A stretch of DNA of 41,635 nt from Candidatus Cloacimonadota bacterium. Its GTDB lineage: Bacteria; Cloacimonadota; Cloacimonadia; Cloacimonadales; JAMOQM01. The DNA is taken from the NCBI GenBank assembly GCA_027064005.1, contig JAMOQM010000091.1, forward strand, positions 1 through 41,635, in the 5' to 3' direction. Within the stretch, counting starts at the first letter, position 1. Every line of letters begins with the position of its first letter. The notes beneath the pieces are model-generated. The model made no database searches. It had not been told where the DNA came from and worked only from the letters and a program-made list of their open reading frames with translations. The position numbers and the translations under genes were made by a program. Below, in pieces: positions 11,039-34,017 of the stretch.

Positions 11039-14000
11039 TTATTCTTCTTTTGCGTCATCCTGAGCCATAGCTTCTTCAAAAGAAATATGTGTTTTGAATC
11101 TGGTAATACCCAATCTTCCGAATAATGAATCCACTAAAGAATAAATTACGGGAATAACAACTAATGTTAATATCGTAGCAAAAGCTAATCCGAACGAGAT
11201 ACTTACAGCCATTGGCTTCCAATCTTGGGTAGCCGTTGAGGTTGAAATAATCATTGGAACCATCCCAAATATTGTAGTAATAGTAGTTAGCAAAATAGGA
11301 CGTAATCTTGTTACTCCGGCATTAATTAATGAATGCCAACGATCCATTCCCAATTCCCTTTCCTTATTGACAAAATCAACCAGAACTAAGGAATCATTAA
11401 CGACAACTCCTGCCAATGCGACCACGGAAATCATTGTATTTAGGGAAAATGGAAGTCGTGTAACTAATAATCCGAAAATAACTCCAATAAACGAAAATGG
11501 AATTGTTAACATTACAATTAGAGGTTGGACATAGGATTTAAATTGTGTTGCTAAAATTGCAAATACCAAAAATAAAGCAACGATAAAAGCATACATTAAT
11601 GAAGTGTACGATTTTTTCTGTTCTTCAGCCTGTCCACCATTTTCTAAAATATAACCGGGAAATTTTTTCTCAAAATTAGCCAGTTTACCATCTATTTTTT
11701 TGATTTTATTTCCAAAAAGAATATTTTTTACATTATTGGGAGTTTGAGTAATAGTTCTTCCGTTATCTTGATAATTAGAGACATCAGCAGTAATGGTAAC
11801 AATTCTTTTCCTATCTCGATGAACTATTTCAGCGATACCATCTACTTGTTTTAATTCCGCCAAATCTTTGAGAGGAACTAAATTCCCTGTTCTAGTCCTA
11901 ATTTTTAGATTTGCAAGTTCAGAGAGATTATCAATATTATCAGGCTTTTCTTTCACAATGATATCGTATTCATCCAAATCTCCACCTCTAAAAGTAGAAA
12001 CCGTTGAACCGTAAAGAGCTGTTCTGACAGCTGAAGAAATTTGAGCGGTAGTTATTCCATAAATACCTAATTGTTCATAATTTGGAATAATCCTCAATTC
12101 ATCTTTTCCTTTTGAATAAGTACTCGAAATATCCGTAACTCCCGGTATTTTCTCTAATACTTTTTCTAAATAATCGCTAATTTCCTTCAAAGTAGTTAAT
12201 TTATTCCCCTTTACCCGAAGTTCAACATCTTCGCCGGTAGGAGGACCGCTTTTTGTTAATTTAAATTTATAGGAAGTAATTTCAGGGATTGTATTCATAA
12301 ATTTCCGAAGTGAATTTTTTATTTCATCTAAAGGATATTTCATTTCATCAGCATCGATAAAATCCATTCGGATTTCGGCGTTTGAACTGGCTTCTTCCCA
12401 TCGATGTCTAAGAATCATACTTCCCACAGTTGTTACAATAGACTCTATATCGTGCCTTTCTTTCATTGTTTCCAAATGATTTTCAATTCTTGTTACAACC
12501 TCATTTGTTTTATCTAACTCAGTTCCAATTGGTGTTGTTAGTTGTAATTTCAGTGTTTTAGGAGTGTGTTGGGGAAAAAATTGTAAAGGTATCAATTGAA
12601 AAACTATAACCATTCCACTGAGAATCAAAGCAAAAATCACGGAAAGAACGGTAATGATTCTATGCTTAAGTGCAACTTTGATTATTTTTCGATAACCATT
12701 TGTTATTTTAATTTGAATCGGAGAAATTTTATGTGTTTTAACATTTATCGGTTTTGCCATTTCAGAAACATGAGACGGTAAAATAAAAAGTGCTTCAAAC
12801 AAAGATGCTGCCAAAGCTATTGAGACAACAATCGGGAAAAAATGCATAAATTTTCCCATCATTCCCGACATCATCAACATTGGAATAAAGGCGGCAATCG
12901 TGGTCAAAACAGCAGCAATAACCGGCCACATAATTTCTTCAGCACCTTTGATAGTCGCTTCTTTTGGTGAAAATCCCATTTCTAAATATCGATGTACGTT
13001 TTCCAAAACAACAATTGCATCATCTACTATCATTCCCAAAACTAGAATTAGAGCAAAAAGACTGAGATTATTAATAGTGATATCAAAAGCATTCATAATG
13101 ATAAAAGCTAATAAAAAACTGAAAGGTATCCCCCACGCAGCAAGAATAGCATTTCGCCATCCAATGAAAATCCATAATGAGAAAAATACTAAAATAATTC
13201 CCAGAACAGCATTACTTCCGAGGACTTTCATGCTTTTGCTAACTTCAATTGAGCCATCATTTCTCACAACAGCTCTAACACCGGGATTATTCTTTGCAAA
13301 AGCTTTCACTTCTTTTCTAACATCTTTGATAACATCAATAATATTACCGTCAACGTCTTTATAAACAAAGATATTCACCGATTTTTTACCATCTAATTTT
13401 GAAATAACATTCTGTTCTTCGAGAGTATCTTTTACAGTGGCAACATCACTTAATTTTACTGAATTTCCAAGATTGTCAGTGCTTATAATTAGATGACCGA
13501 TATCATCAACTTTATTAAATTCTCCAACAGTTCTTACTAAAAATTCTGCTGACCCGTATTTGATTGTTCCGTTTGGATAATTATTATTTCGCATTCTGAT
13601 TGCATTTGAAATATCATCTAAGGTCAATCCGTAAGCTTCTAATTTTTTAAGATCACCTTCCACCCAAATTTGTCGTTCACGAGTTCCTGAAACATCGGTT
13701 TTTGAAACGTGATCAATATCTAAGAGGCGGTCTTTCAAATCATCAGCAATATTTCTTAAGGAATTTTCTGAAAAATCACCGGAAATCGCCACATCGCAAA
13801 TTTCATTAATTTCTCTCATATTTAATCTGATAGCAACCGGATCCATGGCATCTTCGGGAAGGTCTTTAACTTTATTAAGTTCGGAGTTAAGATTATCCCA
13901 ACAATCGTCGGGATTTGCGTTCGGTTTGAAATTTACAGAAATTGTAGCTTTTCCTTCTGTACAGGTAGATTCAATATAATCCAAATCATCGACATCCGAG

Positions 14001-14212
14001 ATTTCATCTTCTATTTTTTTAACAATTTGCTTCTCAATTTCAGAAGGAGTTACGCCCGGGTAAGCAACAACGATGATTGCACTTCCAAAATCAACCGGCG
14101 GCATTTCTTCTTTAGGCATATTGAATACTGTGAAAACTCCAAAAACAATTACTAAAATCATGATAAGATTTATAAGAACGGAATTGTTTACAGATAGTTT
14201 TATTATAGACAT
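11039..14212 (-). CDS. RND-family efflux pump inner-membrane transporter, HAE1/AcrB-like
   Basis: 1057 residues, the normal length for an RND pump. It has the twofold-repeated layout: a first helix at residues 10-30, a large periplasmic loop, a helix block with GMIVDDAIVVLENVHRYLEM near residue 400 (the paired Asp of the proton relay in helix 4), then a second periplasmic loop and a second block with GVVVNDSLVLVDFVN near 950. It exports hydrophobic drugs, detergents or lipids from the periplasm or inner membrane through the fusion protein and TolC partner encoded just upstream. The C-terminal tail after the last helix is short and acidic. GGAG lies six bases before the ATG, 11 bases after the fusion-protein stop. 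The substrate is not predictable. Confidence 0.95.
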   Translation of the reverse strand: MSIIKLSVNNSVLINLIMILVIVFGVFTVFNMPKEEMPPVDFGSAIIVVAYPGVTPSEIEKQIVKKIEDEISDVDDLDYIESTCTEGKATISVNFKPNANPDDCWDNLNSELNKVKDLPEDAMDPVAIRLNMREINEICDVAISGDFSENSLRNIADDLKDRLLDIDHVSKTDVSGTRERQIWVEGDLKKLEAYGLTLDDISNAIRMRNNNYPNGTIKYGSAEFLVRTVGEFNKVDDIGHLIISTDNLGNSVKLSDVATVKDTLEEQNVISKLDGKKSVNIFVYKDVDGNIIDVIKDVRKEVKAFAKNNPGVRAVVRNDGSIEVSKSMKVLGSNAVLGIILVFFSLWIFIGWRNAILAAWGIPFSFLLAFIIMNAFDITINNLSLFALILVLGMIVDDAIVVLENVHRYLEMGFSPKEATIKGAEEIMWPVIAAVLTTIAAFIPMLMMSGMMGKFMHFFPIVVSIALAASLFEALFILPSHVSEMAKPINVKTHKISPIQIKITNGYRKIIKVALKHRIITVLSVIFALILSGMVIVFQLIPLQFFPQHTPKTLKLQLTTPIGTELDKTNEVVTRIENHLETMKERHDIESIVTTVGSMILRHRWEEASSNAEIRMDFIDADEMKYPLDEIKNSLRKFMNTIPEITSYKFKLTKSGPPTGEDVELRVKGNKLTTLKEISDYLEKVLEKIPGVTDISSTYSKGKDELRIIPNYEQLGIYGITTAQISSAVRTALYGSTVSTFRGGDLDEYDIIVKEKPDNIDNLSELANLKIRTRTGNLVPLKDLAELKQVDGIAEIVHRDRKRIVTITADVSNYQDNGRTITQTPNNVKNILFGNKIKKIDGKLANFEKKFPGYILENGGQAEEQKKSYTSLMYAFIVALFLVFAILATQFKSYVQPLIVMLTIPFSFIGVIFGLLVTRLPFSLNTMISVVALAGVVVNDSLVLVDFVNKERELGMDRWHSLINAGVTRLRPILLTTITTIFGMVPMIISTSTATQDWKPMAVSISFGLAFATILTLVVIPVIYSLVDSLFGRLGITRFKTHISFEEAMAQDDAKEE

Positions 14213-14223
14213 TTTAAACTCCG

Positions 14224-15303
14224 TTATTTTTGATTAATCTTAAGTTTGGTTCCGTTTTCGATATCATCCGTACCTGAAACGATTACTTTATCGCCAAAAT
14301 GAATTCCGGATTTAACAACAACCTTGTTATCTATAACTTTTTGGATTTTAATTTCTTTTTTAACGGCAATATTCTTATCGGAAGCGATAAAGACGTAATG
14401 TGTATCATAGTATCTTGCAACCGCATCTACCGGCAAAATGATTACGTTATTATGACTAATTGTATGGATTGTGGCATCAACAACCATACCCGGCAGTAAT
14501 TTTTCATCATTATTATTGATTTCAATTTCAATAGGATAGAAATTTTTTTGCGGAATTAAATCCTTTCCAACACCGATAATTTTCCCTGATAAAGTAAGAT
14601 TTAAAGGTTTATAAAAAACATCGACTTTATTTCCTTTTTTAATATTGATTACATCTTTTTCAGAAACTCCAAGTGATAATTTCAGTTTTTTTGTTTGAAC
14701 TATTCTGCAAATTTCTTGTCCGGGATTTATATGCTGACCATCAATAACAGGGAGATAGGAAATATATCCTGAAATTGGGGCAATAAATATGGAATTGTTA
14801 TAATTTCTTTGGGCTGTTTCCAAACCGGATTTTGCCATTTCCAAAGCGGATTTTGCATTATTCCAATTGCTTAAAGTTTGATTGTATTCCGAAAATGATA
14901 TTGATTTATCTTTAAACATTTTTTCCGCAGCATTTTTTGATTTTGTTGCAACCTCAAAATTGAACTTACTTGATTTCAGAGAAGCTTTTGCTTGATTTAA
15001 TCTGAGAATAAAATCATTTTCACGTAATTTACCCAAAGAATCTCCTTTAGAAATATAATCACCGAGATTTTTATTTATCTTCGCTATATTTCCCGAAACT
15101 TCCGAAATTAAATCTACTCGGTTCACACTTTTCAATCTTCCGCTGATTTTAACAAAATCCGTAATTGATTGAGGTTGAATATTTTCGATAAAAACCGAAG
15201 TTGGTTTATCACTTTTTTTATTTGGTCTTCGTTTGGATTTATTACATCCAAATGTAGTTAAAACACCAATTATCATTAGAATAGGAATTATTCTTCCTCT
15301 CAT
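14224..15303 (-). CDS. RND efflux membrane fusion protein, lipoprotein
   Basis: 359 residues. The N-terminus MRGRIIPILMIIGVLTTFGC is a lipoprotein-type signal with the lipid-anchor Cys at 20, although Phe at -2 makes the lipobox imperfect. Then come a barrel-sandwich/lipoyl half motif (VDLISEVSGNIAKINKNLGD near 65), an alpha-helical hairpin (about 95-165), the returning lipoyl half (NSIFIAPISGYISYLPVIDG) and a beta-barrel plus membrane-proximal domain (LLPGMVVDATI). It links the pump to the outer-membrane channel. It overlaps the tolC-like gene by four bases (ATGA). Confidence 0.92.
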   Translation of the reverse strand: MRGRIIPILMIIGVLTTFGCNKSKRRPNKKSDKPTSVFIENIQPQSITDFVKISGRLKSVNRVDLISEVSGNIAKINKNLGDYISKGDSLGKLRENDFILRLNQAKASLKSSKFNFEVATKSKNAAEKMFKDKSISFSEYNQTLSNWNNAKSALEMAKSGLETAQRNYNNSIFIAPISGYISYLPVIDGQHINPGQEICRIVQTKKLKLSLGVSEKDVINIKKGNKVDVFYKPLNLTLSGKIIGVGKDLIPQKNFYPIEIEINNNDEKLLPGMVVDATIHTISHNNVIILPVDAVARYYDTHYVFIASDKNIAVKKEIKIQKVIDNKVVVKSGIHFGDKVIVSGTDDIENGTKLKINQK

Positions 15304-16646
15304 TTTCCCTCCGTTTTCTTAAATAATATTTTAGATATTTTTGTGAAATTTTCAACACCAACTTGAAATTTTAAATTGTTCTTAGCTTCTAAAAACGAAT
15401 AAATCGAATTTGTATATTGGTTCAAAGCATTGAAATACATAACCTGAGTATCCATCAAATCTGTTAAAGAAACCAAATCATTTTGATATCTCGTTTCCAT
15501 TTGTTTATAAGTTTCCGAAGCCAAATCTTTTGCTAAAGAAGAAGATTCTATTGTTTTTGCCGCTAAATATAAATTTTGTAATGAAGATTGAATTCCAAGA
15601 TTCAATTGTGATTGAAAATTTTTCAAATCATACTCAGATTTTTTTAATTTATGTTTGCTATCTTTTACACCTAAACCGTTGTCAAATATTGGAAATATCG
15701 GTATTGACGATGACAACGCAATCGTACTGCTTTTTGAGTAACTATCATCAGGATCAATAGATTCAGTCCAATTCTTTGAATAAGAAAGATTCAAGTTAGG
15801 AAGAAAATTACCGTAACTCATCAAAAGGGATTTCTTTTGAATTTCTTTATTTAAGATAGAAATTTTAAAATTAGGATTATATTTTTCAGCTATATTCAGA
15901 AGTTGTCTATGAATATTTTCATTACTCATAATTTGAGAATATTTAGCTATTCCGGATTTTACTTCTTCTAAATTAATTTTTTTCAAAGTAATATCTTGAT
16001 AAGTTCCGATAGAATTTTGTAAGTCTAAAACTGATAGATTATAGGCATTTGTTAATTGGATAAATACAATATTTTTGTTGGCTTTAGCTGTTTGTGCTTT
16101 CAAATAATCTGCCTTCGAAATAATACTTCTTTCAAATTTCAATTTAGAAATTTCAAGATGCTTTGCTGATGATTCCAAATCCAATTTGGCATTTTCTTTT
16201 TTGGACAACAATTCCAAACATTTGTAATACTTAGATTCAACATCATTTAATAATGATTGTCTTTTAAGCTTTAATTGTTGTTTAGAAATTTTTTCCGCAT
16301 CAGATTGGATTTTTGCACCCAACCAAATTTTCCCGCCATTAAATATCGGTTGTGTAATCGTAGCATTAACGGAGATATTTCTATCTTGCAAATCGTCAGA
16401 ATTTACACCGGGCATTATAGGTTTTGGGTCTGAATTTGACACATTCCCCGAAACAGAAGCCGATGGTAATAAATTAAGATAGGCTTTTTCTTTTGAAATC
16501 GTACTACTCTTCAAATTTTCTTTTGCAGATAATAATGAATTGTTGTTATTCAAAGCCATTTTTTTTGCTTTATCAAGTGATAATTCCAAAGCAAAAATAT
16601 TAATCGAAATTAATATCATCATCAATATGATTATATTTTTTTTCAT
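15300..16646 (-). CDS. TolC-family outer membrane efflux protein
   Basis: 448 residues with a signal peptide (MKKNIIILMMILISINIFA). It shows the internally duplicated TolC layout: two halves rich in long coiled helices with ALNNNNSLLSAKENL near 30 and a matching segment near 260, each followed by beta-strand segments (SASVSGNVSNSDP and NLNLSYSKNW). It forms the trimeric channel through the outer membrane for the pump encoded downstream. The padR gene overlaps it by one base (TAATG) with GGAGG upstream, so the regulator and channel are translationally coupled. Confidence 0.92.
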   Translation of the reverse strand: MKKNIIILMMILISINIFALELSLDKAKKMALNNNNSLLSAKENLKSSTISKEKAYLNLLPSASVSGNVSNSDPKPIMPGVNSDDLQDRNISVNATITQPIFNGGKIWLGAKIQSDAEKISKQQLKLKRQSLLNDVESKYYKCLELLSKKENAKLDLESSAKHLEISKLKFERSIISKADYLKAQTAKANKNIVFIQLTNAYNLSVLDLQNSIGTYQDITLKKINLEEVKSGIAKYSQIMSNENIHRQLLNIAEKYNPNFKISILNKEIQKKSLLMSYGNFLPNLNLSYSKNWTESIDPDDSYSKSSTIALSSSIPIFPIFDNGLGVKDSKHKLKKSEYDLKNFQSQLNLGIQSSLQNLYLAAKTIESSSLAKDLASETYKQMETRYQNDLVSLTDLMDTQVMYFNALNQYTNSIYSFLEAKNNLKFQVGVENFTKISKILFKKTEGK

Positions 16647-17236
16647 TAAATTTCCTCCTCATTTGACAAAAACCGTTTTTCACCTTTTCCCTTCTCCAAA
16701 TCATCTAGAATATTTTGAACTGTAATCATTTCATTTTCAATCATCATTTTTACCATTTCTAATATTCTAAAAGCATAAAAAGGTAGGTTTAAATCTCCAG
16801 TTTCATTTTCCCCAATACGTTCTGTTTGCTTTTCAATAAACATTTTTTTACGTAACTTCATCGTTTTTAATCTTTTTTCTAAAGCTTCTTTAAAAGTATT
16901 TCTTGTTACAGCCCCATCAATAATCCACAACAAAGCCCAAAAGCCCGTTGTCTTTTCAGAATTAGCTAAAATATTTTCCTTTATTTTAGATTTGAATTCA
17001 CGCTGACCTTCCTCGGTAATTGTATATACTTTCTTTTGAGGAAGATTTTTTTGAGAAACCATTTCTCCGGCAATAAGTCCTTCACTTTCCAGCTTTTTTA
17101 AAGATTTATAAATAGAAGCTTTTTTTATTCCTCTAAGAATATGAAATCTTCGCTCTTCCACCTTTTGTGAAATTTGATATCCATACATTGGTTTTTCAAA
17201 AATAAAACCAAGCACAAACAAATCAATTATCGGCAT
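16646..17236 (-). CDS. PadR-family transcriptional regulator of the efflux operon
   Basis: 196 residues from the ATG at 17236 (MPIIDLFVLGFIFEKPMYGY), chosen because AGGAGG lies four bases upstream; an open extension to 17275 has no such site. The N-terminal winged helix (residues 1-85) has the PadR hallmarks YGYQI, IKKASIYKSLKKLESEGLI and KKVYTITEEGQREF. A C-terminal helical part (about 90-180) serves dimerisation and ligand response. PadR proteins usually repress drug-efflux genes and their own gene. Being the first gene of the RND operon, with a palindrome in its promoter, fits autorepression relieved by a toxic compound. Confidence 0.9.
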   Translation of the reverse strand: MPIIDLFVLGFIFEKPMYGYQISQKVEERRFHILRGIKKASIYKSLKKLESEGLIAGEMVSQKNLPQKKVYTITEEGQREFKSKIKENILANSEKTTGFWALLWIIDGAVTRNTFKEALEKRLKTMKLRKKMFIEKQTERIGENETGDLNLPFYAFRILEMVKMMIENEMITVQNILDDLEKGKGEKRFLSNEEEI

Positions 17237-17289
17237 AAAACCTCCTATAACTATTTCCAATATTATCCATATCACTATTATTTTTTTTC

Positions 17290-19271: not shown

Positions 19272-21740
19272 ATGAAAACGAAAATTGCTGTTTTTATCTT
19301 GATAATGATTTCAAATATTCTCGGTGCAATTGTAATATCTGACAATGAAAAGAAGATAATGAATTCAATGTTAGAAAAAGTGCAATTAGATACAACCGCT
19401 CTTAATTTCCCTAAAAATTGGGCAAGTTCTAAATTCAAAATAAAAAAAATGATTCAAATTTTAGAACAACCTCTTGAATTTCCAAAATTCGTTGATGAAG
19501 TAAAAGACACGCTTTTAGTTAAAAATTCAAATCACAAGATTGATTTTATGTTCAATACAATTCTGGAAAAGGATTCTCTAAAAATAGATAATCATATAAT
19601 CTTCTCAGAAATAGATAAGAAATTCAAAAACATAAAAAATGAAAAAGATATTTTAAAATACGCGAAATTTTGTATGGAAAAATCCGAAAAAATCCTCCAA
19701 CCAATGTTAGATAGTCTGTCACTTTCAGAACTAAAATCTCTTGAATCATTTATCTATTCAATCAGAAAAGATGAAAAATTAGATAAAGAAAAATATGAAA
19801 ATTTTTCTCAAAAAAATAACTTTACTCAGGATAGTCTAAAAATTGAAAATTACATTTCAATGATAAAAAAAACTGATTTACGAGCTCTTCAAAATGCATC
19901 TAAAATATTTTTTTATGGAATTAATAAACTGGAATCGTCAAATTTTCGCAAAATAAAATTCAAAAAAAAATATCTTTTAAAATCTAAATTCGGACTTTTG
20001 GTTTGCGGAACAAAATCAAATGATAATTATAAAAAAAGATACGCTTTCATTTATGACCCCGCCGGAAATGATATTTACACCGGAAATATCTCGACCAATC
20101 TCAAAAATCACTTTTGTGCAATCATCGATAAAAAAGGTGATGATATTTATAGAAATCCAAATCTCGGAGAATTGTTCAATATAACTTTTGGAATCGGCTA
20201 TCTTTGTGATGAATCCGGTAATGATTATTATTACGGGGACGATTTTGCTTTTTCAGCAAATTTCGGTTCTTTATTGGTAAAAGATAACGGGGGAAATGAT
20301 ACTTTTCTTTGTGGAAAATATTCGCTTGGAGCCGCAAGTTTTGGAGTTGCTTTAATTCAAAATACCGGTGGTAATGATTTTTATTCAGGTTCCGAATTTT
20401 CTCAAGGATTTGGCGGACCTTTAGGTTGCGGTATTTTAGCTGATTATTCCAATAATATAAAATCTAACAATAATGATGTATATTTCGCCGGTGGAAAATA
20501 TTTACATGAACCGCTTGCCCCAAATGATTATAGAGCATTATCGCAAGGTTTCGGCTTTGGCATTCGCCCTGACATTGCAGGAGGAATAGGCATTATATTT
20601 GATCAAAAAGGAAATGATCATTATAATGGAGGAGTGTTTTCCCAAGGAGTTGGATATTGGTTCGCACTGGGAATGTTAATTGACTTAGAAGGCAATGACG
20701 ATTATCACTCGGTTTACTATCCGCAAGGAAGTGGAATTCATCTGGCAGCAGGATTTTTATATGACGAGGATGGAGATGATAATTACTATTCGAAACACGG
20801 TCCCGGACAAGGAGCAGGTCATGATTATGGAGTAGGATTTTTAGTTGATAGAAGCGGTAATGACGCTTATTCAGTGGAAGGCGGAAATGGTTTGGGAATT
20901 ACAAATTCCGTTGGGGTATTTCTTGATGTTGCGGGAAATGACCGATACGAACGAAAATATACCGAATCATACGGATATGGGAAAAAAGCAAGAGAATCCG
21001 GCAGTCTTGGATTATTTTTAGACACAAACGGCAATGATATATATCCTAATAAAATATCCTCAAATAATTCTTTTTGGGATACCGGTTATTTCGGATTTGG
21101 TTTGGATACTTTAACATTTTCTCAAAAAAAATTGAAATCCGAAATTAAAGATGAACCTATTGATATTGACTCATTGAGTTCTATAGAAAAAATCTTTGAA
21201 TACGCATCGGAATGGGAAGTAGGATCTGCCAAAAAACGGGTAAGATTTGCACGTAAATTATTAATTTCTCAAGATAAAATCGCCACTGATTATATTTGTA
21301 AAAACAAACTGGATACTAAAAGTGGTTTGGAAATGAGAGCAATCGTTGAACTATCAAAAAATTCCAATTATATGAAAAAAAAATTAAGTAAAAATTTAAA
21401 AAATAAAGATGAGCGAATAGTGAGAAACATCATTTATTTGATTGGAGAAATTGCTGACACAAGTTATGTTGATACTTTGAAAATAATGATGAAAAATAAA
21501 AAATACACTTCCTCGGTATTATCTTGTTTAGGTAAAATGAAGACAAATAAATCTCTAAATATTTTGGCAAAATACATTGATTCTGAAAATGTTTATTGGA
21601 GAGTTACAACTGCCAGAAGTCTAAAAAAAATCGCTACTCCTAAAAGTTTAAAACTTCTCGAAACAATGAAAAACGATAAGTGCTTTTTAATAAAATCGAT
21701 GTTTAAATCATCATCAAAGACTTATATTACGAAGGAATAA
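19272..21740 (+). CDS. Exported protein with GND-x-Y repeats and C-terminal HEAT-like repeats
   Basis: 822 residues; I do not recognise a named family. A signal peptide covers about residues 1-18 (MKTKIAVFILIMISNILG). Residues 20-260 are lysine-rich and helical. Residues about 265-591 hold some twelve units marked by GND-x-Y/F (GNDIY, GDDIY, GNDYY, GNDTF and others), mostly 24-28 residues apart. Between marks the pattern is roughly y-GG-x-SQG-x-G, then G-x-L-x-D-x-x-GND, suggesting a glycine-rich beta solenoid with possible metal sites. Residues about 640-815 form helical repeats (DERIVRNIIYLIGEIADTS, YWRVTTARSLKKIATPKSL) like HEAT repeats. The start has GGAG upstream. It stands alone between mscS and marR. 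It may be periplasmic or outer-membrane associated. Confidence 0.8.
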   Translation: MKTKIAVFILIMISNILGAIVISDNEKKIMNSMLEKVQLDTTALNFPKNWASSKFKIKKMIQILEQPLEFPKFVDEVKDTLLVKNSNHKIDFMFNTILEKDSLKIDNHIIFSEIDKKFKNIKNEKDILKYAKFCMEKSEKILQPMLDSLSLSELKSLESFIYSIRKDEKLDKEKYENFSQKNNFTQDSLKIENYISMIKKTDLRALQNASKIFFYGINKLESSNFRKIKFKKKYLLKSKFGLLVCGTKSNDNYKKRYAFIYDPAGNDIYTGNISTNLKNHFCAIIDKKGDDIYRNPNLGELFNITFGIGYLCDESGNDYYYGDDFAFSANFGSLLVKDNGGNDTFLCGKYSLGAASFGVALIQNTGGNDFYSGSEFSQGFGGPLGCGILADYSNNIKSNNNDVYFAGGKYLHEPLAPNDYRALSQGFGFGIRPDIAGGIGIIFDQKGNDHYNGGVFSQGVGYWFALGMLIDLEGNDDYHSVYYPQGSGIHLAAGFLYDEDGDDNYYSKHGPGQGAGHDYGVGFLVDRSGNDAYSVEGGNGLGITNSVGVFLDVAGNDRYERKYTESYGYGKKARESGSLGLFLDTNGNDIYPNKISSNNSFWDTGYFGFGLDTLTFSQKKLKSEIKDEPIDIDSLSSIEKIFEYASEWEVGSAKKRVRFARKLLISQDKIATDYICKNKLDTKSGLEMRAIVELSKNSNYMKKKLSKNLKNKDERIVRNIIYLIGEIADTSYVDTLKIMMKNKKYTSSVLSCLGKMKTNKSLNILAKYIDSENVYWRVTTARSLKKIATPKSLKLLETMKNDKCFLIKSMFKSSSKTYITKE
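20064..21044 (+). repeat. Coding repeat region of about twelve GND-x-Y units
   Basis: Unit marks begin at 20064, 20136, 20217, 20292, 20370, 20469 (NND variant), 20610, 20691, 20772, 20856, 20934 and 21030. Spacing is 72-84 bases for most, with longer steps of 99, 141 and 96. DNA identity between units is low, so these are old protein-level repeats, not recent tandem duplications. Confidence 0.75.
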
Positions 21741-21851
21741 CATTTTACTCTTCTGATATTTCCAAAACAATAAACGACAATATCTTAAATATAACTTTTG
21801 TTTATTAAAGCACTGAGAATAATAATAAAAGTTGTATTTGAAAAACATTTT

Positions 21852-21888
21852 AGTTGACAGCTCAACCATATTAGTTGACTTGTCAACT
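21852..21888 (+). promoter_or_regulatory. Two tandem MarR-type palindromes in the marR leader
   Basis: Site 2, AGTTGAC-tt-GTCAACT (21873-21888), is a perfect 7-bp-arm palindrome. Site 1, AGTTGACAGCTCAACC (21852-21867), is a weaker copy. Their centres are 21 bases apart, two helical turns, so dimers would bind the same DNA face. Site 2 ends just before the marR ribosome site. The TTGAC/GTCAA half-sites are typical of MarR operators. Confidence 0.65.
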
Positions 21889-21897
21889 GAGGTTAAT

Positions 21898-22350
21898 ATG
21901 AAAGAGAAAAGAAAAAAAAGCGTCGGTTTCTGCGTAAATTTTTTAGGGAGAAAAACTAGAAAATATCTCGAACTGGAAGCTGAAAAATTAGGATTAAAAA
22001 CAGGTGATTTGTTTATTTTACATCGACTTATTAAAGAAGAAGGACTTTCGCAAAATCAAATAAGTTGCTTAATGAGGATGAATAAAGCCCACATTGCTCG
22101 CTCAACATCCCATCTAATTTCTAAGAATTTTATCGTGTCAAAATCTGATAAAAATGATTCTAGATTACACAGATTATATTTAACGGATTTAGGTAAGGAA
22201 TTAATCCCGCAAATAAAGGTCATCTTTAAAAATTGGTCAGCTACCCTTACATCTGATTTTTCTAAAGAAGAAAAAACTTTGATTTTAAATTTGCTATTAA
22301 GAATGTGCGATAATGCTAAACAATATTATCATGGAGAAAATAATGAATAA
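21898..22350 (+). CDS. MarR-family transcriptional regulator
   Basis: 150 residues from ATG 21898 (MKEKRKKSVGFCVNFLGRKT), chosen because GAGG lies five bases upstream. The open frame continues up to a TTG at 21832, but that stretch is the operator DNA. It has a winged-helix core: LKTGDLFILHRLIKEEGLSQ (helices), QISCLMRMNKAHIARSTSHL (recognition helix), then the wing SKSDKNDSRLHRLYLTDLGK with the usual D-x-R of MarR. Terminal helices serve dimerisation. It overlaps the MATE gene by eight bases, so it most likely represses itself and the exporter until an inducer binds. A Cys (FCVNFL) near the N-terminus could sense oxidants, which is speculation. Confidence 0.9.
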   Translation: MKEKRKKSVGFCVNFLGRKTRKYLELEAEKLGLKTGDLFILHRLIKEEGLSQNQISCLMRMNKAHIARSTSHLISKNFIVSKSDKNDSRLHRLYLTDLGKELIPQIKVIFKNWSATLTSDFSKEEKTLILNLLLRMCDNAKQYYHGENNE

Positions 22351-23680
22351 ACGAAATGTTTTAGATGAAAAAAATATGCTGAAATTGCTCTTAAAACTTT
22401 CATTACCCGCAATGACGGGAATGTTTGTAATGGCGTTATATAATATAGTCGATACGATTTTTGTCGGGCAGGGAGTTGGTTCTCTCGGTATCGCCGGTCT
22501 AACAATTGTCTTTCCTTTTCAAATGATAATTACATCTATCGGAATTTCTCTCGGGGTTGGAACAGCCTCTCTCATTTCGCGAAGTCTGGGAGCCAAAAAT
22601 TATAAAAAGGCTGAAAATTCACTTGGAACTTCCTACATGTCGGCATTTATTATCACTGCAATTCTAACGTTATTTTCATACATTTTTTTAGATAATTTAT
22701 TGCATTTATTTGGTGCAACCAAAGCGGTTTTACCTTATTCAAAAAGTTATATGAGTATTATCTTAATCGGAAATATCCCCATTGTTTTTTCAATGATTGG
22801 AAATAATGTTATCCGTTCGGAAGGAAATGCCAAAATGGCAATGTTTTCGATGCTCATCGGTGCTGTTGTCAATATTCTACTTGATCCGCTATTTATCTTT
22901 CATTTCAAAATGGGAGTTGCCGGAGCAGCCACAGCTTCCGTAATTGCTCAATTTACCCAATTGGCATTTATCATATATTTCTTTTCCTCCGGGAAATCCA
23001 TATTACACTTCAAATTAAAATCTTTCCTCATCAAATTCAGTATTCTTAAAGAAATTGTCAGTGTTGGCTTTTCCTCATTTGCAAGATTAGTTGCCGGCAG
23101 TTTCGTTTTTATCCTAATTAATAATGCAATAGGAAAATATGGCGATGATAATTCTATTGCAATTTTTGGAATTTCCGTTAGATTTACCAGATTTGTTTTA
23201 ATGCCGGTTTTTGGAATTGCACAAGGATTTCAACCAATTGCTGGATATAACTTTGGAGCGAAAAGATTTCCTAAAATTATTGAAGTAACCAAATTAGCTA
23301 TAATTTCTTCAACCGCAATTATTACGTTTTCAATAATATTATCTGAACTTTTCCCAACCGCTATTTTAAAATTATTCTCAAAAGATCCGCTTTTAATATC
23401 ATCCGGAGCAAAAGTACTACGGATTATGATTTTTGCCCTTCCGGTAGTAGGATTTCAAGCAATCGGCACAACTCTTTTCCAAGCTTTAGGGAAAGCTTTA
23501 CCGGCAATTATCCTATCAATGTCGCGTCAAATTTTAATATTAATACCATTGATTTTAATACTTCCGAGATATTATGGAGTTATGGGGGTTTGGGTTTCTA
23601 ATCCGATATCAGATACTGCTTCAGCTATTTTAACTTTCTTCTTTTATAAAAACTTAATAAAACAACTAAAAAAATTGTAA
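22343..23680 (+). CDS. MATE-family efflux transporter
   Basis: 445 residues from ATG 22343 (MNKRNVLDEKNMLKLLLKLS), preceded by GGAG at six bases; the frame is open to 22313. It has twelve membrane helices in two homologous MatE halves. The first opens LPAMTGMFVMALYNIVDTIF with VGQGVGSLGIAGL; the second includes PVFGIAQGFQPIAGYNFGAK, a signature of the NorM/DinF-like multidrug group. It exports cationic drugs or metabolites using a sodium or proton gradient across the inner membrane. It is translationally coupled to marR and ends in a strong terminator. Confidence 0.93.
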   Translation: MNKRNVLDEKNMLKLLLKLSLPAMTGMFVMALYNIVDTIFVGQGVGSLGIAGLTIVFPFQMIITSIGISLGVGTASLISRSLGAKNYKKAENSLGTSYMSAFIITAILTLFSYIFLDNLLHLFGATKAVLPYSKSYMSIILIGNIPIVFSMIGNNVIRSEGNAKMAMFSMLIGAVVNILLDPLFIFHFKMGVAGAATASVIAQFTQLAFIIYFFSSGKSILHFKLKSFLIKFSILKEIVSVGFSSFARLVAGSFVFILINNAIGKYGDDNSIAIFGISVRFTRFVLMPVFGIAQGFQPIAGYNFGAKRFPKIIEVTKLAIISSTAIITFSIILSELFPTAILKLFSKDPLLISSGAKVLRIMIFALPVVGFQAIGTTLFQALGKALPAIILSMSRQILILIPLILILPRYYGVMGVWVSNPISDTASAILTFFFYKNLIKQLKKL

Positions 23681-24063: not shown

Positions 24064-24267
24064 TCAACCACCACTGATAAGGTGTATTACCTTAACTTCA
24101 GCGTTTTTTGGAATTATAAATGTGTCATAATCTTCTTTTTTCACCAAGGTACCGTTGACCTTAATCACAAGCATTTTAAACACATAATTCATCTTTTTCA
24201 AAACCATCCGAACCGTTAGGTTCTTTTCCCAATCTATTAAATGACCGTTAACAGTAATTTTTTCCAT
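24064..24267 (-). CDS. thiS: ThiS/MoaD-like sulfur carrier protein
   Basis: 67 residues with a beta-grasp fold. It starts MEKITVNGHLIDWEKNLTV, has the VIKVNGTLVKKEDYDTFIIP core and ends in the obligatory Gly-Gly (HLISGG), which is adenylated by a ThiF-type E1 and then thiocarboxylated. Sulfur would go to the thiazole of thiamine or to another acceptor. The start overlaps the thiF stop by one base (TAATG), so carrier and activating enzyme are made together. No thiG, thiH or other thiamine gene is near. Confidence 0.85.
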   Translation of the reverse strand: MEKITVNGHLIDWEKNLTVRMVLKKMNYVFKMLVIKVNGTLVKKEDYDTFIIPKNAEVKVIHLISGG

Positions 24268-24884
24268 TATTCCTCATTCACCAAAATTTTTACTACTAAA
24301 TCTGATTGCATATTAGATACAATTCCAATCTTTGGAGACAATGGCGAAAAATCATTTTTAATCTCTGTTACTTGATCGCCACATATGTAAATTTTGTCAA
24401 CAACTTTTATTCTCAATTTTTCAAAATCTCCAAACCCATAAACACCGGAAGCAATAATTATCGGTTTTTCAGGGAAATGTTCTGTCCAATTTTCAATTAG
24501 CATTTGCTTAACTTCAGCCTTATCAAGGGCTTCTACAAGTATGTCAACTTTTGAAAAAATGTCTTTAACGTTTAGTGAATTTAATTCGGTTTTATATTTT
24601 TCTATCTTAATAAACGGATTAATTCTTTTTATAGTTTCATAAAGAGCATCAACCTTATACATTCCAACTTGGTCTAAAAAATAATATTGTCGGTTTAGAT
24701 TTGGATATTCAACTTTGTCAAAATCAGCAATCACCAATTTATCGATTCCACAACGAGCTAAACTTACTGCCACATTGGAACCTAAACCACCTGCACCGGC
24801 AATACCAATAGTTTTATTAGCAATTTTTTCTCTAATTTTCGGGTCAATTTTTCCGAACAAATCTTCTTTATTTATATTCATCAT
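24267..24884 (-). CDS. thiF: ThiF/MoeB/HesA-family adenylyltransferase, short ThiF type
   Basis: 205 residues. It has the nucleotide-binding GIAGAGGLGSNVAVSLARCG (27-46), the E1 motif DFDKVEYPNLNRQYYF with the Arg that contacts ATP, then VGMYKVDAL and VEALDKAE. It activates the C-terminal glycine of a ThiS-type carrier as an acyl-adenylate. Length and content match the short ThiF family of about 200 residues, which lacks the rhodanese-like and zinc-binding CxxC parts. It overlaps batE by four bases and thiS by one base. The local partner suggests thiamine thiazole or a related sulfur transfer. Confidence 0.85.
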   Translation of the reverse strand: MMNINKEDLFGKIDPKIREKIANKTIGIAGAGGLGSNVAVSLARCGIDKLVIADFDKVEYPNLNRQYYFLDQVGMYKVDALYETIKRINPFIKIEKYKTELNSLNVKDIFSKVDILVEALDKAEVKQMLIENWTEHFPEKPIIIASGVYGFGDFEKLRIKVVDKIYICGDQVTEIKNDFSPLSPKIGIVSNMQSDLVVKILVNEE

Positions 24885-25654
24885 TCTGTTAATCCAATTT
24901 TACCGATTGCTTCATTTCTTATCCAACCGCCTAAACCATTATTTAATTGTATTTGACACCAGTCTCCATCCGATTTCTCAATTTTGAAAATCATTCCTTC
25001 GTGAATAGTAAAAACTCTTGTAAAATCTTCACTCGGTCCACTATACCCCGCTTCTGTAGAGGTTAAAAGAACGCCTTCGGTAATATTATGAAAATTTTTC
25101 CATTTCAAATAAGATATCATTGAAAAAACGATAAAGAAAATTATAAGAATAATCATGATAAAAATAGGGACAGTTTTTTCACGACCTTTGAAATTTAAGA
25201 TCATAATATTTAAAGTCAAAATTATTCCAAGAAAAAACAACAAGGAAATTATTGCCGACAGATTGGGCGAAAAATAATTATAAATTCGTAAAATTGTTTT
25301 TTCAGCCATACTTTTATTTTCAATTCGTTGCTTATCTTTTGTCAAAGTAAGAGCATATTCTAAATCTTTTCGAGCTTTTTTATTATTTGGATTTGCTTTA
25401 AGAGCGATTTTATAATACTGAATTGCCCGACCTAATTTTCCCAATCGAAAGTAGCAATTTCCAATATTGTAGAAAATTTTATCATCATTCAATCCTGTAT
25501 TTTCTATTTTTTTAAAATCCTTTAAAGCTAATTTATAATTTTTATTTTGATAATTTTTTATTCCATCAGAAAAGGTTGTTTCGGTAAGCGAATTTGCTGA
25601 AATCGCAAATGTCAATCCAATAAGAATCATTATTGCAAAAAATTTTATTTTCAT
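24881..25654 (-). CDS. BatE-like TPR protein with SH3 domain
   Basis: 257 residues. Signal peptide about 1-21 (MKIKFFAIMILIGLTFAISA), TPR repeats about 30-110 (IFYNIGNCYFRLGKLGRAIQ, YYKIALKANPNNKKA), two membrane helices about 130-155 and 163-185, then a C-terminal bacterial SH3-like domain about 190-250 (GVLLTSTEAGYSGPSEDFTR, GDWCQIQLNNGLGGWI). This is the architecture of BatE in Bacteroides-type aerotolerance operons. It probably anchors in the inner membrane with the TPRs on the periplasmic side, as a protein-interaction scaffold. GAGGAT precedes the ATG. It lies 10 bases after batD. Confidence 0.85.
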   Translation of the reverse strand: MKIKFFAIMILIGLTFAISANSLTETTFSDGIKNYQNKNYKLALKDFKKIENTGLNDDKIFYNIGNCYFRLGKLGRAIQYYKIALKANPNNKKARKDLEYALTLTKDKQRIENKSMAEKTILRIYNYFSPNLSAIISLLFFLGIILTLNIMILNFKGREKTVPIFIMIILIIFFIVFSMISYLKWKNFHNITEGVLLTSTEAGYSGPSEDFTRVFTIHEGMIFKIEKSDGDWCQIQLNNGLGGWIRNEAIGKIGLTE

Positions 25655-25664
25655 TTTATCCTCA

Positions 25665-27470
25665 CTATATTTGCTGAATTTTAGAAATTAATGAACGCAA
25701 TTTTTCTTCATCACTTTGAATTTTTTCTTTGCTTATTTCTTCCGGAGTAAATCTTGCCCGATCACAAATCTCAAAATATTCTTTAATGTCATCCAAAATA
25801 TTAGCGAATTTTCCCGATTTTATCTTATCATAAATCTCGGAAGTTGTTGAACCTCGTGAAATATTTAATTTATCGGTAATGTAATTTGAAATCCCAACCT
25901 GTGATGATGAATAGAATTTTTTATCTCCATTCTTAGAATATTCTTCAGCTTCTTTAAGATATTTTTTTAGAATTTTTGACGCATTTTTAATTCTGCGATA
26001 TTCGGTATTATTCAACAATTTGTTCTTTTCTTTTGAATAATAATATGCTCCGATAAGAGATAATATCGAAAACAAATAAATTAACCAATAAACAAATTTA
26101 TCAAACAAAAGCTGTTTTGGTTTTTTAGAAATTGTTGTATAAATAAACCCGATATCAGCACCTTCAGAAGAAACATTTGATTGCACAAATCCATTTGGAA
26201 TAAATGATTTCTTACCGGCTTTAATCTCCAGATTATGAGGTTTTGTACTTAAAGTAATGTATTTCTTTATCTGCGGATTAAAGAAAGAAAATTCTATTTT
26301 AGGAATTTGATAATTACCTTCTTCCTCCGCAATTACGAGATATTTAATTCTTTTAATACCGCTCATATTTGTTTTATCGAAAAAACCAGTCTTCGTTTCC
26401 GGATCAAGAAAATGAAAATGAACCATTTTTTTTAATTGAGGAGCGACAAATTGATTGAAATTACCTTTCCCTTTGATTTTCAAAGTATATGTAAAAGAAT
26501 CCCCAACTTTCAAACCGGAAACATTTAATGAATCCTCCAACGTAAATTGCCCAATTGCTCCCGTGAATGAAACAGGTTGATTTTTTGTTGGCAACGGCAA
26601 AACCGTTAAAGGAATCTTTTTGCTTCTGACTGTAATTTGTCGAGAAGAATCAAAATCAAAAAATGACCTTGCCGGTACTGAAACCTGAACATTCATTTCT
26701 AAACTTGGTATAAACAATTTTCCGGAATTATTTGCTGACAAAGCAATTTTAGTTAATAACATTTGCTTATATATTTGTCCTTTATAATTCGTCCTCTGAA
26801 AACTAACTTTATCGGCTGTATAAAGATTTTCTTTCCAGAAACCTTTGTAATCCGGTGATTTCCCAAAAGATAAATTTAGCAATCTATCTTTAGTTAAAAG
26901 GTAATAACTTACAATTACCGGTTCGCCTTCAAAAACGGTATTCTTATTTAACTTTGCAATTACAAAAGTGTTATTCTTTGATATATTTTGACGGGGTTGA
27001 TTTGAAGTAAACGGATCGGCAAAGAATTGGTTCTGCTGTTGCCTGTTTTGATGAGAAGGACGGTTACCTGAATTTTTGGTTACAACCATTTTTATCGGTG
27101 AAGTCGTAATTGTTTTACCTTTAAACGTTAAACTGATTGGAGCGATAATAAATGTTCCGATTTTTTGAGGTTGTAGAGTGTAGATAAAGGATTTTGTGGT
27201 TTTTCTTTCCATTTTCCCATTCACAATCGTAATTGAAGAAGATGATGATGATGTTTGTCCAATTACATCAAAATCTAATTTATTAGGCAATTTTACCTCA
27301 TCGACTTTCGACGCATTCTTGCCGGAAATTTCTATTGTGAGAGTAAAAGTATCATTAATCCCAACTTTGGTAACATCAACATAAGATTGAATACTTAGAG
27401 CCGAAACACTGAATATCGTCATCAACAGGGAAATGGTTATTATTATTTTTTTGTAATTCATCGTTTTCAT
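25665..27470 (-). CDS. batD: BatD family aerotolerance protein
   Basis: 601 residues. After a signal peptide (to about residue 24) comes a long beta-rich periplasmic region. It opens with VDVTKVGINDTFTLTIEISG and repeats Ig-like segments such as KIGTFIIAPISLTFKGKTI and VGDSFTYTLKIKGKGNFNQF, the usual BatD (oxygen tolerance) pattern. One membrane helix (YWLIYLFSILSLIGAYYYS) lies near 460-480. A cytoplasmic helical tail of about 120 residues follows. The start has AGGAGG five bases upstream. It is ten bases after batC. BatD is thought to be the periplasmic part of a MoxR/BatAB complex. Confidence 0.9.
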   Translation of the reverse strand: MKTMNYKKIIITISLLMTIFSVSALSIQSYVDVTKVGINDTFTLTIEISGKNASKVDEVKLPNKLDFDVIGQTSSSSSSITIVNGKMERKTTKSFIYTLQPQKIGTFIIAPISLTFKGKTITTSPIKMVVTKNSGNRPSHQNRQQQNQFFADPFTSNQPRQNISKNNTFVIAKLNKNTVFEGEPVIVSYYLLTKDRLLNLSFGKSPDYKGFWKENLYTADKVSFQRTNYKGQIYKQMLLTKIALSANNSGKLFIPSLEMNVQVSVPARSFFDFDSSRQITVRSKKIPLTVLPLPTKNQPVSFTGAIGQFTLEDSLNVSGLKVGDSFTYTLKIKGKGNFNQFVAPQLKKMVHFHFLDPETKTGFFDKTNMSGIKRIKYLVIAEEEGNYQIPKIEFSFFNPQIKKYITLSTKPHNLEIKAGKKSFIPNGFVQSNVSSEGADIGFIYTTISKKPKQLLFDKFVYWLIYLFSILSLIGAYYYSKEKNKLLNNTEYRRIKNASKILKKYLKEAEEYSKNGDKKFYSSSQVGISNYITDKLNISRGSTTSEIYDKIKSGKFANILDDIKEYFEICDRARFTPEEISKEKIQSDEEKLRSLISKIQQI

Positions 27471-27480
27471 CGCACCTCCT

Positions 27481-28221
27481 CTACCAGAATTTTCCTGATT
27501 TAGGTCTTTGCCCTTGAATCATTACTTTTTTCTTTTTCTTATTTTCTTTTTCTTTTTGCATTACCATCTTTAATAATTTTTCAGCTTGTTTTTTATCTTT
27601 TGCCATTTTCATTTGCTGTTTTTTTTGTTGTTCATTTTGTTTTTTATCTTGCTTTTGATTCTTTTGTTTATCTTTATTTTGATTATTTTTATCTTGTTTA
27701 TTCTGTTTCTGTTGGTTTTGTTTATCTTTTTTCTGATTTTTTTTATTCTTATTATTTTTATTGTTCTTTTGTTTTTGTTTTTGTTGTCTTTGAAGCATTC
27801 TCGACGCCAATTCATAATTGATTCTAGCATCTTCATTTTTGCTATCAGACATCAAAGAATTTTTGTAAGCTTTAATTGCATCTTTATAATTTTTCTTTTG
27901 AAAATAACTATTCCCAAGATTTTTATAAATTTCACTTTTATTCTTAATTGATTTATCTCGCAAAGCTAATTTATATTCATCAATAGATTTATCATATTTC
28001 TTATTTTGATAATAATTATTTGCCAAATTATAATGCAATTTCCCGTCTTTAGGATAATTTACCGCATTCTTTTCAAAGTATTTTTCACTATCTTTGTATT
28101 TTCCCTTTTGATAAAGAGATTTACCTTTAAAGTAATTTTTCAGCTTTGAATAATTAAAATCAATCGAGTGTAAACTGATGAACATTAAATATATCATTAT
28201 TAGGATTGATATTTTTTTCAT
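27481..28221 (-). CDS. batC: BatC-like TPR protein with Lys/Asn/Gln-rich tail
   Basis: 246 residues from ATG 28221, five bases after GGAG (a GTG at 28227 is the upstream alternative). Signal peptide about 1-19, TPR repeats about 35-135 (KLHYNLANNYYQNKKYDKSI, IYKNLGNSYFQKKNYKDAI). From about 148 to 232 there is an extreme low-complexity stretch of K, N and Q with some D, then MIQGQRPKSGKFW. A short C-terminal motif ending in W after a charged tail is typical of BatC. The tail is probably disordered and may bind partners or polyanions. It sits between batB (4-10 bases away) and batD. Confidence 0.85.
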   Translation of the reverse strand: MKKISILIMIYLMFISLHSIDFNYSKLKNYFKGKSLYQKGKYKDSEKYFEKNAVNYPKDGKLHYNLANNYYQNKKYDKSIDEYKLALRDKSIKNKSEIYKNLGNSYFQKKNYKDAIKAYKNSLMSDSKNEDARINYELASRMLQRQQKQKQKNNKNNKNKKNQKKDKQNQQKQNKQDKNNQNKDKQKNQKQDKKQNEQQKKQQMKMAKDKKQAEKLLKMVMQKEKENKKKKKVMIQGQRPKSGKFW

Positions 28222-28231
28222 TTTCACTCCG

Positions 28232-29245
28232 TTATATCGTCCGTTTTATAATTTCTTTTTTATTATATAAAATAAATATTTCAACAAAAATTAAAAATAA
28301 AGCAATCAATAAAAAGTATCTGTATTGGTCTTTATAGCGAATAAATTCTTTGCTGGAATACTTTGATTTTTCAATAGTGCTTATTCTTTTCAAAATTTCA
28401 AAAATCTCTGATTGCTGAGGAGTTATAGCATAAAATTTCCCATCGGTAACCTTTGCTAATTTTGTCAAAGTACCAACATCCAATTTAGATAAAATTATAT
28501 TTCCCTTATCATCTTTGGCATATTCAACATCTCCATTTTCATTTTTAATCGGTATTGTTGAACCTTCCGGACTCCCTATTCCTAAAGAATAAATAATAAT
28601 CCCGTCTTTCTTCAATTTTTTTGCTGTTTCAATAGATTTCTTCTCCAGATCTTCCCCGTCAGAAACAAGAATAACAACTTTATATTTTTGAGAATTACTA
28701 AAAAGTGATGCGGATTTATTTAACGCCGCTCCAATATTTGTACCGTAATATGGAACCGTATCTGTATCTATATTGTTTAGAAACATTTTGGCAGCCCCAT
28801 AATCATCGGTTAGCGGACATTGCACAAAACTTTTTCCGGCAAATGCTACAATCGCTACTCTATCGCCTTTTAATTGATCAATAAACAGTGAAATTTGATC
28901 TTTTGCACGTTTCAATCTATTTGGTTTAATATCTTCAACTTCCATACTCTTTGAAGTATCTAAGCAAATAACAATATCGATTCCTTCTTTTTTCACAATC
29001 TGCAATTCCTTATTCCATTGTGGTCTGGCAGCTGCAATAATCATAAAAAATATAGCGGTAATTAAAAGTGCGTTCTTTAAATTCAAATGAAAAAAAGAAA
29101 GATTACCATAATAAAAATCAAAAAAACGTTCATCACTAAATTTTGAGAATCGTGATTTATTTCTCTTTTTAACAAAGAAAATCAAGATAATTAATATTGG
29201 AATTATCAGCAGTCCTAACAAAAATATTTTATTTCCCCATTGCAT
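28232..29245 (-). CDS. batB: BatB-type von Willebrand factor A membrane protein
   Basis: 337 residues. Membrane helices at about 7-25 and 56-74 and one near 310-330. The vWA domain lies between, with the metal-ion site DTSKS (Asp96, Ser98, Ser100), a later conserved Thr region (PYYGTNIGAALNKS) and VVILVSDGEDLEKKS. QCPLTDDYGAAKMFL is shared with the neighbouring BatA. The vWA domain probably faces the cytoplasm or periplasm next to the MoxR ATPase partner. SD AGGAAG precedes the ATG. It is 12 bases after batA. Confidence 0.9.
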   Translation of the reverse strand: MQWGNKIFLLGLLIIPILIILIFFVKKRNKSRFSKFSDERFFDFYYGNLSFFHLNLKNALLITAIFFMIIAAARPQWNKELQIVKKEGIDIVICLDTSKSMEVEDIKPNRLKRAKDQISLFIDQLKGDRVAIVAFAGKSFVQCPLTDDYGAAKMFLNNIDTDTVPYYGTNIGAALNKSASLFSNSQKYKVVILVSDGEDLEKKSIETAKKLKKDGIIIYSLGIGSPEGSTIPIKNENGDVEYAKDDKGNIILSKLDVGTLTKLAKVTDGKFYAITPQQSEIFEILKRISTIEKSKYSSKEFIRYKDQYRYFLLIALFLIFVEIFILYNKKEIIKRTI

Positions 29246-29257
29246 TTTATACTTCCT

Positions 29258-30250
29258 TTATGGCAAAAATTTTGGATTTATAATCGTAAACCAAAGTTCA
29301 ATTATTAACAACAAAATAGATAATAATATGAAATATGGAAATAATTCTTGGTAATGATAATAATTTTTAATCTTAATTTCTGTCTTTTCCATCTTATCAA
29401 TATTATCAATAATATTCTTTAGTTCTTCGGAATTATGGGCTCGATAAGCTTTTTTTGTACCGGTTTCTTGAGCTATTTTATTCAAAGATGCCATATCAAC
29501 ATCAACTTTAATTTTCTGATATCTTTTCCCATAAATTGGATCTTGCACAGGAATTTCAGCATAACCTCTTTTACCAACACCAATCGCATAAATTTTTATA
29601 CCAAAAGTTTTTGCTAAATTTGTCGCGGTTAAAGGATCAATCTCGCCGGTATTGTTTCTACCGTCAGTAATCAAAATAATAACTTTAGATTTTGCTTTAG
29701 AATCTTTGAGCCTCGCCACAGAATTTGCAATCCCCAAACCGATAGCAGTTCCTTGAGCTTCTTTATCAATTTTAATATCTGATAAAATTTTCATCAAAAT
29801 GTTGTAATCTAAAGTTAGCGGACATTGAGTGTAAGCATTTTCAGCGAATTTGACAATTCCAATCCTATCATTTTTTCTTTTATTGATAAAATATTTAGCA
29901 ACTTTTTTGGCTGATTCCAATCTATTTTTCGGCTTAAAATCAATGGCTTCCATACTTCCGCTCACATCAATTGCCATCATAATATCAATACCTTTTCCCG
30001 AAATCTGCTGTTTTTTATAAGAAAATCTCGGACCGGCCAAAGCAAATATTATTGAAAAAATCATCAAGCTGTGAATTGCAACCAAAAGAAGTGGCCAATA
30101 TGAAGAATGACCGGCTACTTTTTTCAAAATATCTATTCTGGAATGATGAATACGCGGACGTTTTTTTCTAATAATATAGAAATAATACGCCCAATAAATT
30201 GGAAGAATAAAAGCCAGCCACAACCATTTAGGATTAGACAATTCAAACAT
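29258..30250 (-). CDS. batA: BatA-type von Willebrand factor A membrane protein
   Basis: 330 residues with two N-terminal helices (about 8-26 and 52-72), a vWA domain and a C-terminal helix (YFILLSILLLIIELWFTII). The metal-ion site is complete: DVSGSM with Asp95, Ser97 and Ser99, then the GTAIGLGIANSVARL threonine motif and VIILITDGRNNTGEI. NRLESAKKVAKYFI matches the BatA pattern. It overlaps the preceding gene by eight bases with GAGGAG upstream. BatA and BatB are paralogues and are presumed to be a heteromeric complex handled by MoxR. Confidence 0.9.
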   Translation of the reverse strand: MFELSNPKWLWLAFILPIYWAYYFYIIRKKRPRIHHSRIDILKKVAGHSSYWPLLLVAIHSLMIFSIIFALAGPRFSYKKQQISGKGIDIMMAIDVSGSMEAIDFKPKNRLESAKKVAKYFINKRKNDRIGIVKFAENAYTQCPLTLDYNILMKILSDIKIDKEAQGTAIGLGIANSVARLKDSKAKSKVIILITDGRNNTGEIDPLTATNLAKTFGIKIYAIGVGKRGYAEIPVQDPIYGKRYQKIKVDVDMASLNKIAQETGTKKAYRAHNSEELKNIIDNIDKMEKTEIKIKNYYHYQELFPYFILLSILLLIIELWFTIINPKFLP

Positions 30251-32046: not shown

Positions 32047-32067
32047 TTCTACTCCGATTTAATATTT

Positions 32068-33054: not shown

Positions 33055-33088
33055 TCTTCCTCCAAAATTTTTTGATATTTTAAAACTC

Positions 33089-33135: not shown

Positions 33136-33141
33136 TTTCTT

Positions 33142-34014: not shown

Positions 34015-34017
34015 TTT

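Follow-up and report, generated by a model that had tools for sequence, protein, structure and literature searches.

What does an exported protein do that joins a dozen widely spaced GND-x-Y repeats to HEAT-like helices, and does its glycine-rich middle domain belong to a known repeat family? The gene that raises this question occupies 19272..21740 (+ strand) of the window, the whole 41,635-nucleotide stretch of Candidatus Cloacimonadota DNA analysed here, and is present in a single copy in the 2.4 Mb source genome. The ORF starts with ATG, preceded by GGAG 8 nt to its 5′ side, and encodes 822 aa; the ORF table and AF2 modelling divide the product into an export signal, a helical N-terminal domain, a GND-x-Y β-solenoid and a HEAT tail. 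The strict pattern G[ND]Dx[YF] occurs 11 times, whereas 20,000 randomisations of the same composition gave it 0.09 times on average and never more than 3 times; a twelfth, degenerate unit (NNDVY, residues 400-404) takes the form G-x-D-x-Y in relatives. Thus, the twelve units described in the sequence-only reading are real. Start-to-start spacings of 24, 27, 25, 26, 33, 47, 27, 27, 28, 26 and 32 residues agree with the 24-33 residues given there for all intervals but one, the gap of 47, which results from a conserved loop inserted in turn 6.

The export signal proposed earlier was also borne out. Residues 1 to about 20 (19272..19331, +), MKTKIAVFILIMISNILGA, form a Sec-type signal peptide without a lipobox, and nearly all relatives begin with a similar hydrophobic N-terminus; a simple rule for export-type N-termini was passed by 108 of 133 relatives, with the failures mostly due to alternative starts. 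The adjoining helical domain (residues 24-222; 19341..19937, +), delimited from the AF2 model and from conservation by 30-residue block, is weakly conserved and matched no known family.

Structure prediction of the middle domain gave a confident and regular solenoid. The full-length AF2 model, built with 34 homologues (pLDDT 89.9, pTM 0.87), placed helices at residues 24-222, the solenoid at 234-612 (19971..21107, +), a low-confidence linker at 615-630 and HEAT helices at 638-821. Because a Foldseek search with this model returned only HEAT-type and other α-repeat chains, the solenoid was modelled alone from 80 sequences (pLDDT 94.8, pTM 0.92), again with one unit per turn. Each predicted turn spans about 27 residues and has three short strands; by DSSP, a strand of 5-6 residues leads into a 5-residue turn holding the GND, then come a strand of 3-4 residues and a longer loop, and a 2-residue strand with a short turn after it closes the unit.

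AF2 is known to produce confident false solenoids, with stacked uncompensated charges, from perfect repeats, although diverged natural repeats were found to be reliable (PMC11795689). Stacked Asp residues are also present here. In view of this tendency of AF2, the fold was tested independently of the model, by covariation among orthologues only (92 sequences, with a modest Neff of 58). The top 100 long-range mutual-information pairs included 7 in the same register of adjacent turns, compared to 0.44 expected, and 14 within one position of that register, compared to 1.1 expected, with counts dropping on both sides of register 0. A same-register peak of this kind between neighbouring turns is what one repeat per turn should leave behind, and it supports the solenoid, short of proof given the modest Neff. 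The alternative that the model is an artefact of repetitive sequence is extremely improbable, considering this AF2-independent peak, the divergence of the repeats, the 80 diverse rows of the alignment and the recurrence of a conserved strand-turn pattern in every unit. In sum, one repeat per turn with strands stacked in register, as found by prediction and covariation, places the middle domain very probably among the β-solenoids.

Searches for a family to which this solenoid could be assigned returned little. The window protein gave only HEAT or marginal matches in Pfam, NCBIfam and PHROG, leaving the solenoid units unmatched; all 80 solenoid members likewise gave only HEAT or marginal matches in Pfam and NCBIfam, and a profile search of PDB sequences with the solenoid found nothing. 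The earlier statement that no repeat family could be named for the units therefore agrees with the profile searches, and of the two results that would have contradicted the sequence-only reading, assignment of the units to a characterised family and a prediction lacking a regular solenoid, neither was obtained. Foldseek comparison of the solenoid model with the PDB found nothing significant (best E 0.46, TM at most about 0.24), and there was no match among viral structures, suggesting that the predicted geometry lacks a solved counterpart. The top-ranked of these non-significant matches were parallel β-helix polysaccharide lyases and hydrolases (such as chondroitinase B, PL6), which share with the present protein a repetitive β-solenoid whose successive turns bear conserved polar and aromatic residues, but at these E and TM values the fold does not match a solved member, a CAZy-type Pfam match is lacking and the conserved residues are others.

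The RTX β-roll (PF00353) offers a closer chemical likeness, with its Gly-Asn-Asp turns, acidity, stacked short strands and plausible calcium role. A strongly diverged form of this calcium-binding GGxGxDxUx roll, lengthened to 27-residue turns, would account for the resemblance of GND-x-Y to the RTX turn G-x-D-x-hydrophobic and for the presence of CyaA RTX block V chains among the weak Foldseek matches (TMt 0.39, rmsd 4-5, about 136 columns, E 4.5-5.5). Nevertheless, we consider this origin highly improbable: each turn has about 27 residues with one GND rather than a nonapeptide of period 9, HemolysinCabind (PF00353) matched 0 of the 80 members at E 0.1, and the structural matches are non-significant. 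Nor is the type I secretion layout of RTX proteins found, as the protein has a Sec-like signal at its N-terminus and a HEAT helix at its C-terminus. The distinction from RTX nonapeptides drawn in the sequence-only reading thus stands, on the 24-33-residue period and the lack of any PF00353 match.

A further, limited resemblance is to the SBBP repeat (PF06739). At E 0.1, only 5 of the 80 members matched it, the best at 4.2e-5, and the window protein did not; in the one member scored singly against the cut-off, L139, a short stretch of one unit reached 19.7 bits compared to a cut-off of 20.5. The SBBP repeat is a propeller repeat, whereas a solenoid is predicted here. A comparison with the knotted solenoid of Brevundimonas (PMC13123833) was set aside, as that protein comes from a different bacterial group and its closest kin are pentapeptide-repeat proteins. 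Thousands of unmatched repeat architectures are listed in large surveys of predicted structures, and the GND-x-Y solenoid may be among them; the "extruded repeat" clusters in The Encyclopedia of Domains are a known class of such predicted architectures without a CATH match (PMC7618865). β-Solenoids and HEAT repeats as such are already known kinds; what is absent from Pfam, NCBIfam, PHROG and the PDB is this solenoid family, with its unmatched geometry.

Comparison of the 80 sequences revealed the turn consensus [VIL]-G-x-L-x-D-x-x-G-[ND]-D-x-Y, with a conservation of about 92-100% at D(-3), G(0), D(+2) and Y(+4) in almost all turns; in turn 1, D(-3) is either D or E, and conservation of this position was scored outside turn 6, where an insertion specific to the window protein disturbs the column. 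The model shows ladders along the stack to which each turn contributes two Asp and one Tyr, and the net charge of the domain averages -28, acidic residues outnumbering basic ones. The Asp ladders and the strong acidity together make a cation ladder plausible. It is a reasonable inference from the sequences that cations, plausibly calcium, are bound between turns, as the sequence-only reading had suggested; divalent cations, probably calcium, would compensate the charge of the Asp ladders and stiffen the rod.

The C-terminal module (residues 638-821; 21183..21734, +) follows the low-confidence linker. Although the Pfam HEAT_2 match of the window protein (E 8e-6, 26.5 bits) is slightly below the gathering cut-off of 27.7, the family profile matched HEAT-type alphaRep chains at E 5e-59, and AF2 predicted helices over this stretch. 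The HEAT-like repeats noted earlier are therefore HEAT by sequence and by predicted helices, and they differ from the HEAT_2 and alphaRep examples in being exported and joined to, or encoded beside, a β-solenoid. Most orthologues have the HEAT module fused to the solenoid. A separate HEAT gene starts where the solenoid gene ends at L146-L149 (WOR-3 phylum) and L184 (one Cloacimonadota genome), and in these split lineages both ORFs begin with hydrophobic export-type sequences; the stand-alone HEAT partners of relatives matched HEAT_2 at E 3e-35 and 2e-40. The tree requires at least two independent changes between fused and split forms, on well supported branches. Occurrence of the two modules both as a fusion and as neighbours suggests that they probably act together, and probably outside the cytoplasm. 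HEAT modules are also present in exported bacterial proteins, and with separate exported HEAT genes adjoining the solenoid gene, the usually cytoplasmic location of HEAT repeats carries little weight as an oddity of this protein.

The gene is widespread. It was present in 53 of 59 genomes of the same order, in 54 of the 59 Cloacimonadota genomes sampled (29 of 30 genera), and in 74 of 100 genomes of the phylum of the WOR-3 record L113. A third, small phylum, to which L105 gave access, has it in 16 of 17 genomes; in the latter two tallies a paralogue can count as a match, and in a few WOR-3 genomes the match is to the HEAT stretch only. The wider contig search for relatives was based on the best 80 of 253 loci, and a locus titled Latescibacterota (L111), which belongs to the same phylum sample as the WOR-3 record, was not counted as an extra phylum. 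No relative was found on plasmids by tblastn, and none was confirmed among IMG/VR viral sequences. Beside the fused and split forms, the third phylum contains another solenoid type, which is more distant and about 760-850 aa long (G061:C155, G062:C15, G185:C131, G190:C12 and others). The best reading of these data is that the solenoid-HEAT protein represents an undescribed, single-copy and nearly phylum-wide family of envelope proteins.

Analysis of conservation along the solenoid revealed a set of residues that the repeat itself does not explain. Leaving aside the repeat Tyr, non-Gly/Asp positions that are at least 96% conserved lie only in turns 6-12, and none is in turns 1-5; they are R432, P433, Y462, W463, Y483, Q485, H490, L496, H517, N545, F550, R574, F582 and W602, and turns 7-10 are the most conserved stretch of the protein. 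The turn-6 inserted loop (residues 405-438; 20484..20585, +; family consensus GGKYxHxPLxPxDYRSxxQGFGFGxRPDxAGG), recognised from conservation in A1 and A2, has the invariant R432 and adjoining residues at its end; residue 416 within the loop shows covariation with positions 481-543 of turns 8-10. The subsequent turns contribute the aromatic pair Y462-W463 (turn 7; 20655..20660, +; Y in 80/80 and W in 78/80 in A2), H490 (turn 8; 20739..20741, +; 80/80 in A2 and 41/41 extra sequences), H517-D518 (turn 9; 20820..20825, +; H in 79/80 and D in 80/80 in A2), N545 (turn 10; 20904..20906, +; 78/80), R574 (turn 11; 20991..20993, +; 79/80) and W602 (turn 12 or C-cap; 21075..21077, +; 80/80). W463, H490 and D518 share a register, each being five residues after the Gln of its turn's QGxG, and from this common offset and the DSSP assignment they should stack on consecutive turns.

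Outside the fused orthologues, R432, Y462-W463, H490 and D518 persist in HEAT-less paralogues and in the split genes of other lineages, across three phyla, with the aromatic pair conserved except in a degenerate lipoprotein paralogue; H517 is replaced by Trp in one paralogue clade. The lipoprotein (L183, 7010-10132, the same protein as at L033) is a second, lipobox-bearing paralogue of about 1040 aa in a Cloacimonadota genome that has kept R432, H490 and D518 and lost W463 and H517, and is possibly site-dead. The short HEAT-less paralogues at L166-L181 in the WOR-3 phylum (about 490-720 aa) have most of the site residues; the short paralogue is directly followed, at L172 and at L181, by a gene encoding about 270-300 aa, and the one at L172 has an export signal and no Pfam match. 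The losses in the lipoprotein and the Trp-517 clade look like those of a functional site able to degenerate, rather than of a structural ladder, and the uneven conservation, centred on non-repeat polar and aromatic residues of turns 6-12, points to a candidate active or binding site. Taken together, these residues probably constitute a conserved functional site and not mere structure.

Gene context differed between lineages, so that no function could be read from it. In the window, the neighbours are MscS and MarR/MATE genes. The gene lies between two efflux systems, each accompanied by its own regulator: a PadR-OEP-HlyD-AcrB operon upstream (11039-17275) and a MarR-MATE pair just downstream (21832-23680). 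Farther downstream is a BatA/BatD/VWA (aerotolerance-type) cluster with a ThiF-family gene at its end (24267-35916). One Cloacimonadota family (L059, L070, L082 and L096) has rsmG-parA-parB, named by reading the sequences rather than from a family scan, directly downstream of the solenoid-HEAT gene; this is the usual origin-proximal cluster. WOR-3 neighbours include metallophosphoesterase or M6-peptidase genes together with housekeeping genes. At L160-L162 and L164 of this phylum, the adjoining gene encodes an M6-type metallopeptidase, to which a weak type IX secretion tail is attached (at L161, Peptidase_M6 E 9e-13 and CHU_C E 0.0015). No neighbour was conserved across lineages, the adjacent genes being mostly housekeeping genes that vary.

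The interpretation that we favour, which we hold tentatively and at somewhat less than an even chance, is an envelope protein whose solenoid bears a putative active or ligand site and whose HEAT arm serves for docking. By analogy with the layout of parallel β-helix enzymes, the patch of His, Asp, Arg and aromatic residues would be an active site or a specific ligand site, with an envelope glycan (peptidoglycan or a surface polysaccharide) as the likeliest ligand, and the HEAT arm, perhaps together with the helical N-terminal domain, would attach the rod to a partner protein, either periplasmic or at the cell surface. Catalysis is possible but doubtful, and action on a glycan is somewhat unlikely. 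Counting against an active or ligand site are the facts that no enzyme family, fold match or informative operon was found and that invariant residues can be structural.

A pure scaffold or spacer is one rival explanation: a rod in the periplasm or at the surface, stabilised by cations, would dock through its HEAT arm and have no active site. The high regularity of the solenoid, its two Asp per turn and its acidity fit such a rod, as do the usual binding of proteins by HEAT modules and the failure to match any enzyme family. However, in a spacer there would be no need for R, W, H, H, D and N to be invariant within just a few turns, nor would it be expected to keep them at only about 30-40% identity elsewhere and in short HEAT-less paralogues, or to have turns 7-10 as its most conserved part, and we regard this explanation as unlikely. 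Of the sequence-only reading, the regular exported solenoid joined to HEAT is supported, but the term scaffold is probably incomplete, with conservation concentrated on the non-repeat residues of turns 6-12. Those residues could instead form a face that binds a peptide, lipid or lipoprotein without turnover, in an envelope assembly factor or receptor whose HEAT module holds the client. Linkage of HEAT by fusion and by gene adjacency, a single-copy and nearly universal distribution like that of an assembly component, and the aromatic pair at the site are consistent with this role; we nevertheless judge it quite unlikely, as no conserved envelope-assembly gene is nearby and a set of His/His-Asp/Arg residues is seen more typically where chemistry takes place than where a ligand is passively bound.

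The favoured interpretation of a solenoid with an active or ligand site has a more far-reaching form, which we consider rather unlikely. The protein would then represent a new enzyme superfamily, built on a calcium-stiffened GND-x-Y solenoid of unsolved turn geometry whose His-Asp/Arg/Trp active site extends over successive turns, and would be a core envelope-polymer enzyme of Cloacimonadota, WOR-3 and the third candidate phylum, steered by its HEAT partner. R432, W463, H490, H517 and D518 make the function directly testable. At least three phyla, almost uncultured, have the family near-universally and in single copy, yet its solenoid part is unrecognised by the curated family models used; it could be among the core envelope components that distinguish these phyla.
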